From positions 1 to 51,184 of the forward strand of contig CANQHD010000003.1 of assembly GCA_947623625.1 (NCBI GenBank): a stretch of DNA of 51,184 nucleotides, given 5' to 3'. Made by a program: the position numbers and the translations under genes. Numbering within the stretch: position 1 is the stretch's first letter; each line of letters begins with the position of its first letter. The notes beneath the pieces are model-generated. The model ran no database searches. It had not been told where the DNA came from and worked only from the letters and a program-made list of their open reading frames with translations. Of this stretch, positions 22,089 through 27,020 are shown piece by piece. The stretch comes from an uncultured Bacilli bacterium. GTDB lineage: Bacteria > Bacillota_I > Bacilli_A > RF39 > UBA660.

Positions 22089-22289
22089 TTATTTTTTTTC
22101 CACTTTTAAATGCCCTTCTAAAATTTCTTCTAGGGCTCTCCCAATATTCTTTTTACACTTGTATTCAGATTCAGGCATTTGGTAATGTTCTGTCCTTGAC
22201 ATTTCTTTACTGCGTCTTGCTGCGATATGGACAAGTTCATATTTACTTCCTACAATATTTTGAAGCTTATCAATAGACGGATATATCAC
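22089..22289 (-). CDS. rpoZ: RNA polymerase omega subunit
   Basis: MIYPSIDKLQNIVGSKYELVHIAARRSKEM…KNIGRALEEILEG. Confidence 0.9.
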   Translation of the reverse strand: MIYPSIDKLQNIVGSKYELVHIAARRSKEMSRTEHYQMPESEYKCKKNIGRALEEILEGHLKVEKK

Positions 22290-22370: not shown

Positions 22371-22396
22371 AAAGAAAAAGTGTCATTGACACTTTA
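22371..22396 (-). terminator. Intrinsic terminator of the CotD-like gene
   Basis: AAGTGTCAATGACACTT followed by TTTCTTTTG on minus strand. Confidence 0.75.
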
Positions 22397-22535
22397 GTTG
22401 AAACGTCCACACTGGTTACAAGAACCACATTGGATATTACTACATACGTTTTCTTCGCAACAAGAATATTGTGGACTATAAGTATGTCTAAAGATATGAT
22501 GATTAATAATTCTCGTACGAATTGGGCAAACATGT
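22394..22535 (-). pseudogene. 3' part of an interrupted CotD-like Cys/His-rich protein
   Basis: Minus strand reads …CPIRTRIINHHIFRHTYSPQYSCCEENVCSNIQCGSCNQCGRFN*; continues the frame of 25340-25575 after removal of the element. Confidence 0.9.
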
Positions 22536-22550
22536 CTCTGCCCTTTTTTG

Positions 22551-24128
22551 TTAGATTTTATTAAAAGTAACATTAATATTTATATTCTTATCCTCAAATA
22601 TTTCTATTCTATCCACTAAATTTATTATAAGTTCTCTATTAGGTTCTTTCATAGATAAAAATTGATTAATATATTCTATTATCATTTTATTTTTAGATTT
22701 TTCATCTGTTATATCATTCATATTATCATTTAATTCATTATATTTTTTTTGTTTTATAGAAAGTTCTTTTTCTAGTTTTAATTTAACTCTTTCAAATTGC
22801 TCTTCAGTAATTTTTTGATTTAACTTATCAATATAAATAAGATCTAAGTTATCATTGATTTGCTTAATGTCATTATTTAGTATTTCTAGCTCTTTTTTAT
22901 CATTCACTTTGTTTGTTTTATTTAAATTAGATAAAACAGAACTTTTAATTTTATCTTTGTTAATATAATTTAAACACATTTTAGCCAAGAAATGAATAAT
23001 CACCTTCTCCAACTCATCATAATTATTTGAATGAGTTGTACATAACTTCTTCTTCATATAGGTTCTATAGTAATTACAAATAGTATAACATCTATTATCT
23101 TTTTTCCTTCTCGATGTGATGGATATTCGATGTCCACAATCACCACAATACAAAAGTCCATCTAGTAAATGATTTTCTTTTTTTTCATCTCTACCTACAT
23201 TTTTAGGTATTCTTGCCTGCACTTCATAAAACAATTCTTTATCAATTATAGCTTCATGAGTATTTTCTACAACAATATAATCATTCGTATTATTTTTTAT
23301 TACTTTTTTTACCTTATAATTTACTTTACTTCTTTTATTTTGGACTAGATCACCTATATACATCCTGTTTGTTAAAATATCTCTAACTGTTTTAGAATGC
23401 CACTGTCCATATCTTAAATTATAATGGCTTTTCCATTCAAAACTATAATACTGGGCAGGTGTTTTTACTTTTTCATTTGTTAATTGCTCAGCTATTTTAT
23501 AAAATGATAAGCCTTCTAAACACATATTAAATATTCTCTTAACAATACTAGCTTGTTCTTCGTTTATTACTAAATGATTTTTATCACTTTTATCTTGATC
23601 GTATCCAAATGGCGTTCTACCTCCTACCCATTTTCCTTCTTTCATCTTTGCTTTTAAACTAGATTTTATTTTTTTAGAAATATCTTTAGCATACATATCA
23701 TTCATTATGGCTTTAAATGGTGCAATATCATTATTTGAACTATCTAAAAAAGTATCTATATTATCTGTAACGGCTATATATCTAACATTATGTTCTGGAA
23801 AATATTTTTCTACCAAATTACCAGTTCCAATATAATCTCTCCCAAGTCTTGACATATCTTTCGTAATAACCATATTTATTTTTCCAAGTTCAATATCTTT
23901 AAGCAATCTATTAAAGTCTGGTCTATCAAAATGAGTCCCAGAATAGCCATCATCAATATAAATATCGTAAACCCTTAAATGATTTTCTTTTACATATTGA
24001 AGTAATAAACTTTTTTGATTTTTAATACTTTCACTCATCAACACCTTATCATCATCTTCACGAGATAGTCTTATATAAAGACCAACATTATATATCTTAT
24101 TTAAATGACTAATAATTTCTACCTCCAT
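22551..24128 (-). CDS. Large serine recombinase
   Basis: Resolvase catalytic domain YNVGLYIRLSREDDD…SESIKNQ…DDGYSGTHFDRPDF; recombinase domain; zinc ribbon LLDGLLYCGDCGHRIS…RRKKDNRCYTICNYY; C-terminal coiled coil. Confidence 0.97.
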   Translation of the reverse strand: MEVEIISHLNKIYNVGLYIRLSREDDDKVLMSESIKNQKSLLLQYVKENHLRVYDIYIDDGYSGTHFDRPDFNRLLKDIELGKINMVITKDMSRLGRDYIGTGNLVEKYFPEHNVRYIAVTDNIDTFLDSSNNDIAPFKAIMNDMYAKDISKKIKSSLKAKMKEGKWVGGRTPFGYDQDKSDKNHLVINEEQASIVKRIFNMCLEGLSFYKIAEQLTNEKVKTPAQYYSFEWKSHYNLRYGQWHSKTVRDILTNRMYIGDLVQNKRSKVNYKVKKVIKNNTNDYIVVENTHEAIIDKELFYEVQARIPKNVGRDEKKENHLLDGLLYCGDCGHRISITSRRKKDNRCYTICNYYRTYMKKKLCTTHSNNYDELEKVIIHFLAKMCLNYINKDKIKSSVLSNLNKTNKVNDKKELEILNNDIKQINDNLDLIYIDKLNQKITEEQFERVKLKLEKELSIKQKKYNELNDNMNDITDEKSKNKMIIEYINQFLSMKEPNRELIINLVDRIEIFEDKNININVTFNKI

Positions 24129-24252
24129 CTAAAGGTAAATAAGTGAGTGATGGTCCCTCATATTTTTTGATCTCTTTATTTAAAACTTTTATAAAAATAT
24201 CATTAATATCTTGGTCTTTACTAAAGATATAATTAATTTTGTACTTATCCAT
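24109..24252 (-). CDS. 47-aa small ORF overlapping the recombinase start
   Basis: MDKYKINYIFSKDQDINDIFIKVLNKEIKKYEGPSLTYLPLDGGRNY*; SD-like GAAGGGA; 20-nt overlap with recombinase CDS. Confidence 0.6.
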   Translation of the reverse strand: MDKYKINYIFSKDQDINDIFIKVLNKEIKKYEGPSLTYLPLDGGRNY

Positions 24253-24408
24253 ATATTTTATTCCCTTCACTTTAACTTATGGATAAGTCATCCATTTTAG
24301 TATTACTTATAAACTTGCATATTATTTTCATGAAGGAAAAACTAGAAAAAATTCTTTTGATCACTTGTAAATTGATTAAGAAGCAACATTAGAAATACTA
24401 CACTTAAA

Positions 24409-24462
24409 AAATAAAAATCATCCTACATTAAAATTTTAATTTATAGGATGATAATTTTTCTA
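24409..24462 (-). terminator. Intrinsic terminator after fic
   Basis: ATCATCCTATAAATTAAAATTTTAATGTAGGATGATTTTT on minus strand. Confidence 0.65.
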
Positions 24463-25212
24463 ATTATTTTCTTTGATTTCAAAATTTAATAATTCTCGAG
24501 AAGTTTTTTCATATAAATCTTGTTCATGTTTTATAGTATCCATCAAAAACATCTTATCACTTTCATATTCTTTTAACCCCCTCATATAATAAGGCTTATC
24601 ATCATCTAATACAATAAATGGCATAATATTGTTTCTTAAACACTCTTTAAACATTATTATTCTACCAACACGCCCATTCCCATCTCCAAAAGGATGAATA
24701 CGCTCAAATCTAAAATGAAAATCAACGATATCTTCTAGAGTAATATTTGTTTTAGTATTATATTCTTTTAACAGTTCTTCTATTTCTTTTTCCACATCAT
24801 CTGGGGCAGTAGTATTAATAATATTAACAACACCTATCATGTTAGGAATAACTTTAAATCCACCAACATTATATCTAGGATTTTCTTCATCGCTAGTATT
24901 TCTTTTTAATATCTTATTCATTTCAATTATCATATCTTTAGTTAAGAGTTCATCTATATTATCTAACATATAATCAAATAATTTAAAATGATTTTTAGAT
25001 TCCGTTAAATCATCCAATTTAATTAAATCATCACTTTTCGGAATAAAAGAAGATGTATCAAATATTGCCTCAGTCTGTTCACTGGTTAATCTACTACCTT
25101 CGATTTTATTTGAATTATAAGCAAAATTAACTTGCGAATAATGATATATATTCCCTTTAAATTTAGATTCTTTTTGTTTGATTAATTCATTTTTTATTTT
25201 ATTTATATCCAT
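24460..25212 (-). CDS. Fic-family protein (probable AMPylase) with N-terminal inhibitory helix motif
   Basis: HPFGDGNGRVGR Fic motif; N-terminal SNKIEG matches (S/T)xxxE(G/N). Confidence 0.95.
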   Translation of the reverse strand: MDINKIKNELIKQKESKFKGNIYHYSQVNFAYNSNKIEGSRLTSEQTEAIFDTSSFIPKSDDLIKLDDLTESKNHFKLFDYMLDNIDELLTKDMIIEMNKILKRNTSDEENPRYNVGGFKVIPNMIGVVNIINTTAPDDVEKEIEELLKEYNTKTNITLEDIVDFHFRFERIHPFGDGNGRVGRIIMFKECLRNNIMPFIVLDDDKPYYMRGLKEYESDKMFLMDTIKHEQDLYEKTSRELLNFEIKENN

Positions 25213-25339
25213 AAATTCACCAACTTTCAAACTTTCATTTTTCTATTTATTAACATTCTTTTAAAATATTATATTTATTCTTCATCCATTATATCATAAA
25301 AAGACATTTCTTATTTTTAAGTCTATCATAAATTATCAC

Positions 25340-25575
25340 ACATGTGGTACATTGTGCATGATAGTACGATTTACAACACGTTCTTGCATTGGCTCAATAA
25401 TTGGGTTTTCGTTATCTGTCATTTGAAAATTATCTCCACCATCCATATCCATCATAACATCATTACCAACATTAATATCAATATCCATATCTTGATCGAT
25501 AACATTATTGTTTCCAACGATTGTAGCATCTTGATCGCTCATAATATCTCCAAGACTTGGGTTATTATATAACAT
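25340..25575 (-). pseudogene. 5' part of the interrupted CotD-like protein
   Basis: MLYNNPSLGDIMSDQDATIVGNNNVIDQDMDIDINVGNDVMMDMDGGDNFQMTDNENPIIEPMQERVVNRTIMHNVPHV then TGA contributed by the element. Confidence 0.88.
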
Positions 25576-25611
25576 ACATTTTCCTCCTATCTGTTATAAG
25601 ATATGAACAGA

Positions 25612-25646
25612 TAAAAAAACTGGTCGCGATGATTGCCCAGTTTCTT
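25612..25646 (-). terminator. Intrinsic terminator after ffh
   Basis: AAACTGGgcaatcatcgcgaCCAGTTTTTTTATC on minus strand. Confidence 0.8.
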
Positions 25647-25649
25647 TGA

Positions 25650-26957
25650 TTAAAATGGTAACTTCAAATTTCCATTTGAAAATTGCTTCATCATTTTCTT
25701 CATTTGATCAAATTGAGCTAAAAGTTTATTGACTTCTTGAACAGATAAACCACATCCTTTAGCAATTCTCGTTTTTCTACTCGCTTTAATGATTTCAGGA
25801 TGTCTTCTCTCATTTGGAGTCATAGAAAGGATAATCGCTTCAATATGAGCCATTTGCTTCGGAGGAATCTTCACATTATTCAGTCCCATTTTAGAAGCCC
25901 CAGGGATTAATTTCAATAAGTTTTCGAGTGGTCCTAATCTCTTCATTTGCTTGAGTGTAGATAAAAAGTCTTCTAAATCGAATTTACCTTGTTGCATTTT
26001 CTTCGCAGTTTTTTCTGCTTCCTTTTCATCAATTGCTTCTTGGGCTTTTTCAACTAAAGAGATAATATCTCCCATTCCAAGAATTCGACCAGCCATTCGT
26101 TCTGGATCAAAAGAATCTAGTCCGTCTAACTTTTCAGAAACACCAATAAATTTGATGGGAACATGTGTTAGGTGTCTTACAGATAAGGCAACTCCACCTC
26201 TTGTATCTCCATCTAATTTAGTCAAAATAACTCCCGTTAATTTAAGCTTATCATTGAATCCTGTAATCACATTGATAGCATCCTGTCCCATCATAGCATC
26301 AAGTACTAAAAGAATTTCTTGAGGAGTTATTTCTTTTTCAATATTTTGTAGCTCCTCCATTAAAGCATCATCAATATGAAGACGCCCAGCAGTATCTACT
26401 AAAACATAGTCATAATGATTTTCTTTAGCATAGGAAATTGCATTTTTTGCAATGGTTACTGGATTTTCTTTTCCTTCTTCATAAACTTCTATATTCAACT
26501 GTTTTCCTAGTTGTTTTAGCTGATCAATTGCAGCAGGACGATAAACATCACAAGCAACTAAAAGAGGTTTTTTCGCATGTTTTTTTCTTAAGAAATTCGC
26601 AAGCTTACCAGTTGTCGTTGTTTTTCCACTTCCTTGTAATCCAACAAGCATCAAAATTGCAGGAGATCCATCTAAATTAAGAGGAGCACTTTCTCCACCT
26701 AATAGTTCTGTTAATTCATCTTTTACTATTTTTACAAATAGATCCCCTGGCTTAATACTAGATTGTACTTCTTCGCCAAGAGCTTTTTCTTTAACCGTTT
26801 GTGTAAATTCTTTTACAACTTGATAGTTGACATCGGCTTCTAAAAGAGCAAGTCGAATCTCTCTCATCATCTCGCCGATGTTTTCTTCCGTTATTTTTCC
26901 ATAGCCTTTCATCTTATGAAGCGCATTTTGTAGACGTTGTCCTAAACTTTCAAACAT
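25650..26957 (-). CDS. ffh: Signal recognition particle GTPase Ffh
   Basis: MFESLGQRLQNAL; GLQGSGKTTTTGKLA; C-terminal M domain. Confidence 0.97.
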   Translation of the reverse strand: MFESLGQRLQNALHKMKGYGKITEENIGEMMREIRLALLEADVNYQVVKEFTQTVKEKALGEEVQSSIKPGDLFVKIVKDELTELLGGESAPLNLDGSPAILMLVGLQGSGKTTTTGKLANFLRKKHAKKPLLVACDVYRPAAIDQLKQLGKQLNIEVYEEGKENPVTIAKNAISYAKENHYDYVLVDTAGRLHIDDALMEELQNIEKEITPQEILLVLDAMMGQDAINVITGFNDKLKLTGVILTKLDGDTRGGVALSVRHLTHVPIKFIGVSEKLDGLDSFDPERMAGRILGMGDIISLVEKAQEAIDEKEAEKTAKKMQQGKFDLEDFLSTLKQMKRLGPLENLLKLIPGASKMGLNNVKIPPKQMAHIEAIILSMTPNERRHPEIIKASRKTRIAKGCGLSVQEVNKLLAQFDQMKKMMKQFSNGNLKLPF

Positions 26958-27020
26958 ATTTATCACCACTTTCATTATATAGAAATTTTTTTGAAAAGTA
27001 AAAGAAAAAGCATCTCTTTC

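Follow-up and report, generated by a model that had tools for sequence, protein, structure and literature searches.

A minimal serine-recombinase element splits a cotD-like gene in uncultured RF39 Bacilli and may be excised in the mother cell

Introduction

The few known cases of developmental gene reconstitution come from Bacillus and Clostridium, in which mostly large, prophage-like elements interrupt sigK, spsM, gerE, yabG and a small number of further genes (PMC5595907, PMC4191935, PMC10747680). Here we analysed a stretch of 51,184 nucleotides, hereafter the window, from an uncultured Bacilli bacterium of the GTDB order RF39 (contig CANQHD010000003.1 of assembly GCA_947623625.1), in which a 2810-bp insertion splits a cotD-like gene. 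The closest described system is gin, which lies in gerE of Bacillus cereus ATCC10987, has no phage genes and is excised by GirC together with the 42-aa protein GirX (PMC5595907). Both elements are non-phage, split a short mother-cell sporulation gene whose halves join precisely, and pair a large serine recombinase (LSR) with a tiny protein, 47 aa long in the case of the window's candidate; moreover, both have near-identical copies in different strains. In contrast to gin, which spans 28.6 kb, carries three recombinases and has been shown to be excised, the window's element measures 2.8 kb, contains three genes, sits in cotD, is known here from sequence alone and has relatives spread over many genera at one site.

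The skin elements in sigK of Bacillus subtilis and Clostridioides difficile, SPbeta in spsM and yin in yabG likewise represent serine-recombinase elements within a sporulation gene, with att half-sites and in-frame restoration (PMC5025042, PMC4191935, PMC10747680). These are prophages or prophage-like, whereas the window's element is devoid of phage structural genes; in addition, sigK is uninterrupted in the window's genome, unlike in skin-bearing hosts. Staphylococcal cassette chromosome (SCC) elements with Ccr recombinases share with it a broad recombinase architecture, tandem accretion at one chromosomal site and, in related loci, toxin-antitoxin-type cargo. The best NCBIfam matches of the LSR are indeed CcrC/CcrB, at 124 bits versus a cut-off of 900, but SCC occupies the end of rlmH without disabling this gene, whereas the window's element splits cotD. 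The low score and the different site together rule out that it is an SCC/Ccr element. What it has in common with the skin/gin type is an interrupted coding region of a sporulation gene, a serine recombinase of its own and frame-restoring att sites, and it probably works in the same way. In the literature searched (open-licence papers), we found no report of a cotD-targeting or Fic-bearing element of this kind.

Results

A three-gene insertion in a cotD-like gene

On the minus strand, the gene order of the locus is ffh, cotD 5' half, Fic gene, 47-aa ORF, LSR, cotD 3' half, rpoZ and recX, comprising the following features:

25,650-26,975, minus strand: ffh, the conserved upstream neighbour (profile match and synteny)
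25,340-25,575, minus strand: cotD-like 5' half, 79 codons, ending in HV (N-terminal halves of the same family at 45 loci)
24,460-25,212, minus strand: Fic protein (PF02661, E=1e-14; active site HPFGDGNGR; N-terminal inhibitory-type motif SNKIEG)
24,109-24,252, minus strand: 47-aa protein whose gene overlaps the start of the recombinase, a candidate recombination directionality factor (position conserved in relatives)
22,551-24,128, minus strand: LSR, 525 aa, with Resolvase, Recombinase and zinc ribbon domains (PF00239, PF07508, PF13408) and catalytic YIRLS
22,394-22,534, minus strand: cotD-like 3' half, HVCPIRTRIINHH...GRFN followed by a stop (comparison across loci)
22,089-22,289, minus strand: rpoZ, the conserved downstream neighbour (profile match and synteny)

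The element has a GC content of 24%, compared to 30% for the whole window, and its gene content amounts to the LSR, the overlapping 47-aa protein and a Fic protein. Domain and family searches of the 2810 bp revealed these three genes and no phage structural or replication genes, ruling out a prophage or prophage-like identity. The initial annotation had recognised the recombinase, but its inventory lacked the Fic gene as well as the small ORF preceding the LSR and a hairpin over the start codon of this ORF, described below. The N-terminal SNKIEG motif of the Fic protein is of the inhibitory (S/T)xxxE(G/N) type, and we take the protein to belong to class II; it is 86-93% identical in most relatives sitting at cotD. 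For the 47-aa protein, profile searches returned neither a family match nor recognised relatives, but its ORF keeps its position directly upstream of the LSR in relatives. We are dealing almost certainly with a minimal, non-phage integrative element that was inserted into cotD by its LSR.

As initially annotated, the sequence ACATGT occurs at 22,530-22,535 and 25,340-25,345, defining an interval of 2810 bp, and the repeat extends no further than these 6 bp. Removing the element in silico yields the expected joined ORF of 123 aa, while the split 5' half terminates at a TGA supplied by the element (25,336-25,338). Since the hexamer occurs 10 times in the window, the repeat by itself proves nothing, and the proof has to be comparative. 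Uninterrupted homologues, which the initial annotation had proposed to look for, exist in two same-genus genomes, G001 and G003, whose joined ORFs share 82% and 75% aa identity with the reconstituted one. The DNA of G001 aligns straight through the joined flanks with no scar (79.5% over 483 bp). A third same-genus genome, G004, is split at the identical point by an element whose Fic protein and recombinase are 89% and 83% identical to those of the window. The two halves belong to one protein family rather than aligning to unrelated proteins. The name CotD-like rests on a Pfam match (PF11122) scoring slightly below the cut-off (20.9 vs 22 bits); the uninterrupted relatives, which are located downstream of ffh, form one clear family.

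Relatives at one site in many genera

We gathered relatives of the LSR from 388 family genomes plus named genome contigs. At 66 loci, the LSR was closely followed by a full-length cotD 3' half lying on the same strand, always in one orientation. A Fic gene, a small ORF and extra cargo were often present between the cotD halves, with complete elements ranging from 2.8 to 8.1 kb. Where loci with at least 70% LSR identity initially seemed to be without a cotD 3' half, the contig ended soon after the LSR or the half was present in further DNA. The cotD-sited relatives occupy an identical point of this gene across dozens of related genera, and they are spread throughout the bacterial family, whose order is probably RF39. 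Their hosts are uncultured Bacilli or Tenericutes, one of them being Candidatus Faecimonas gallistercoris, which has been placed in the GTDB order RF39, family CAG-611 (PMC8035907).

Joining the halves at the same position produced an open, in-frame gene at every one of the 45 loci containing both, and none of these complete loci carried a decayed half. The 3' half also appeared to be under alike constraint in split and intact genes, with a median pN/pS of 0.436 vs 0.425 (partly saturated values). In genome G014, a displaced duplicate of the cotD 3' half, separated from the usable copy by a MazEF-like cassette, is changing at conserved residues (pN 0.062 vs pS 0.043; a single case). Roughly 30 of the 118 genomes with a cotD match, about a quarter, look split according to a hand count from the match table that set aside ambiguous contig-edge cases.

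Toxin-antitoxin-type genes recur around these elements. At one locus (L042:8272-9709), a 46% identical Fic gene and a MazEF-like pair follow the cotD 3' half; at two others (L037, G014:C94; L179, G148:C1), a second cotD 3' half lies beyond a MazEF-like or NERD-domain-like cassette, resembling the accretion of cassettes that bring a replacement gene end. Two IMG/VR contigs (L161 and L162) encode a 77% identical LSR and contain no cotD. In the second (L162:2592-7584), this LSR adjoins a reverse transcriptase, an Avd-like ORF and a Fic gene, an arrangement reminiscent of a diversity-generating retroelement.

Recombinases of a sister group (L153, L156-L160), at about 55% identity, belong to elements ending at the 'VSGD' of LysM cell-wall genes. 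In L153 (3478-7703), the protein encoded by the 5' part is amidase-like and carries LysM repeats; a join at GAT regenerates YVVKKGDTLWDIAQKYGTT there and likewise restores the LysM domain in L159. The right-end pattern of this group was present in 20 of 195 family genomes.

A CA dinucleotide shared by both junctions

Comparing the 45 complete loci allowed us to delineate the att sites as follows:

25,343-25,344, minus strand: attL crossover dinucleotide CA, inside ACATGT 25,340-25,345 (45-locus comparison)
22,533-22,534, minus strand: attR crossover dinucleotide CA, inside ACATGT 22,530-22,535 (45-locus comparison)
25,322-25,345, minus strand: element left end ACATGTGTGATAATTTATGATAG, conserved attP half-site with in-frame stop (logo of 45 loci)
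22,530-22,560, minus strand: element right end CTAACAAAAAAGGGCAGAGACATGT, conserved attP half-site (logo of 45 loci)

The initial annotation had placed its att sites essentially correctly, but took the entire ACATGT as core. Across the 45 loci only CA is common to both junctions every time, and, judged by this alignment, the 6-bp core is partly coincidence. The CA opens the His codon of VPH-VCPI, and the third base of this codon comes from the element in attL (A at 31, T at 13 and G at 1 of the loci) and from the host in attR (T at 38 and C at 7). The left ends follow the consensus CA[A/T]GTGTGATAATTTATGATAG, including the nearly invariant in-frame TGA, and the right ends are strongly conserved as CTATCAAAAAAGGGCAnnnACA. 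We infer that the constant orientation of the elements fits the fact that CA is not self-complementary. Tandem elements at cotD meet in an element-element junction (L088:2721 and L137:3768), and here the predicted attP occurs in nature, composed of right end, CA and left end. Viral contigs contained neither the attP junction nor the element's left end, terminal overlaps revealed no circular molecule among small contigs, and no single strain yielded an excised junction (attB plus circle). In two contigs, L192 and L039 (G027), cotD seems to be inverted relative to ffh/rpoZ, and both contigs stop exactly at the att core.

Promoter motifs and a start-codon hairpin

Two further features concern the expression of the split gene and of the recombinase:

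25,597-25,605, minus strand: CATATCTTA, sigma-E/K type -10 motif of cotD (motif count upstream of cotD)
24,243-24,288, minus strand: hairpin ACTTATCCATA/TATGGATAAGT, 11 bp, which encloses the ribosome-binding site of the 47-aa gene and base-pairs with its ATG (leader comparison)

Upstream of the cotD start, CATANNNT was present within 20-60 nt (typically about 30 nt) in 59 of 66 genes, compared to a mean of 4.9 after shuffling, a pattern typical of mother-cell sigma-E/K promoters. In the window, GACC at 25,622-25,625 additionally fits the sigma-K -35 element of cotD. The genome encodes Spo0A, SpoIVA, SpoIIGA, SigE, SigG, the uninterrupted SigK as well as SigF-like and SigH-like factors, and sporulation has been predicted for RF39 bacteria (PMC10868615).

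A stem of at least 7 Watson-Crick pairs with the geometry of the window's hairpin was found in 42 of 52 distinct leaders, as opposed to a shuffled mean of 8.8, a comparison in which the relatedness of the leaders overstates their independence. Distant groups keep the hairpin with different bases (TTATCCATA/TATGGATAA, AACCATAGA/TCTATGGTT and GCCATA/TATGGC), which supports a real structure. Such a hairpin could act as a translational lock, silencing read-through transcripts from ffh, cotD or Fic. In most elements, CATANNNT also occurs 21-29 nt upstream of the 47-aa gene start, where it coincides with the 5' arm of the hairpin; one subgroup (L087, L132, L135 and L136) is without it. A mother-cell promoter for the recombinase at the hairpin arm is thus possible, but the motif is inseparable here from base pairing, and we do not regard this promoter as established. 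Many elements (L081-L119) have another inverted repeat, AGTAATACTAAAT...ATTTAGTATTACT, which precedes the hairpin upstream of the 47-aa gene and is a possible operator or terminator.

Discussion

According to our model, the LSR would integrate the element at one CA inside the VPH-VCPI codon run of the cotD-like gene, whereby the 5' half gains a stop codon and the 3' half is left without a dependable start. During sporulation, the mother cell would express the recombinase together with an excision factor, for which the 47-aa protein encoded just upstream is the candidate; both this factor and the timing are deduced. Recombination of attL and attR at the CA should then release a circular element and leave cotD scarless. 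As the mother cell dies anyway and the forespore keeps the element, neither host nor element would be harmed. We consider it probable that cotD is rebuilt in the mother cell in this manner, because the joins are in frame at all 45 loci, the 3' half is full-length at all 66 even though 49 of them offer it no start codon, it is similarly constrained in split and intact genes, and about a quarter of the genomes are occupied. The CATANNNT motif of cotD, the host's sporulation genes, the tandem attP-type junctions, the prediction for RF39 and the gerE precedent point in the same direction.

The element might instead be a plain mobile element knocking out a dispensable cotD, the halves being intact since insertions are young and soon lost or replaced. 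Its mobility is well documented. At the 31 loci for which both genes were available, recombinase identity was uncorrelated with that of Ffh (Mantel r=0.09, p=0.22), which rules out a vertical, skin-like inheritance. The elements at L124 and L098 (5627 and 5628 bp) encode LSRs that are 99.8% identical in hosts whose Ffh proteins share 76% identity; conversely, clearly different elements reside in hosts with 98-99.5% identical Ffh (L120/L138 and L086/L098). The missing correlation and the near-identical elements in distant hosts indicate that the elements move between genera and turn over at the site. With such rapid turnover, many insertions may be recent, and intact halves and pN/pS values alone do not prove use. 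Nevertheless, occupancy of a conserved gene in about a quarter of genomes is hard to reconcile with a costly knock-out of cotD, no half has decayed in the complete loci, the displaced and unusable 3' copy of G014 does show changes, and fast turnover itself needs precise excision or replacement at the site. We therefore regard a simple knock-out as unlikely. Restoration during development is the better-supported account of why both cotD halves stay intact, and the element is clearly mobile between genera; developmental restoration and mobile cargo do not exclude each other.

Somewhat less probable still is an excision untied to sporulation, in which some cells lose the element at any time and a mixed population has cotD intact in part. 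For the yin element in yabG of Clostridium botulinum, excision affects a fraction of the cells at every time point (PMC10747680), and a mixed population could also yield contigs ending at the att core, as seen in G014 and G027. Such contigs are few, however, and repeated elements in one sample could generate the same ends, leaving them too few to weigh as evidence for mixed populations. Moreover, loss during growth is permanent and should favour empty sites.

That the 3' half forms a short gene of its own with an element-supplied start, the product being deliberately made in two pieces, is very improbable. The window does offer an in-frame ATG in the element (ORF 22,394-22,573), but at 49 of 66 loci the stretch from the preceding stop to the core contains no ATG, GTG or TTG, and several loci carry a stop immediately ahead of the core. 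Independent production of the 3' half is therefore unlikely; on this family comparison, a separate gene appears largely excluded. An assembly artefact in the form of a chimeric contig, conceivable for sequences that are all metagenome-assembled, has next to no probability given the identical junctions in dozens of independent assemblies from varied hosts and projects and the preserved ffh-cotD-rpoZ-recX order.

Returning to excision in the mother cell, we tentatively envisage a broader, widespread class of elements in uncultured spore-forming gut Bacilli, although this generalization is rather doubtful at present. Its members would be minimal, non-viral and horizontally spreading, would reside within conserved spore or cell-wall genes, with the sister group behaving likewise in LysM genes, and would leave only in the terminal mother cell. 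The start-codon hairpin would lock recombinase translation unless transcription begins within the element, at a mother-cell promoter that overlaps the 5' arm of this hairpin.

If confirmed, the element would represent a far smaller version of developmental gene reconstitution, acting on a target gene not reported before in the literature searched, and occurring in a large uncultured gut lineage whose sporulation ability has only been predicted. The recombinases, together with their nature-derived attB and attP sites, could be used directly in recombination tests in vitro, and the dozens of independent natural copies provide a comparative series on how mobility is balanced against host harm. 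Finally, a joined cotD in read data would indirectly mark sporulation in organisms that have never been grown.
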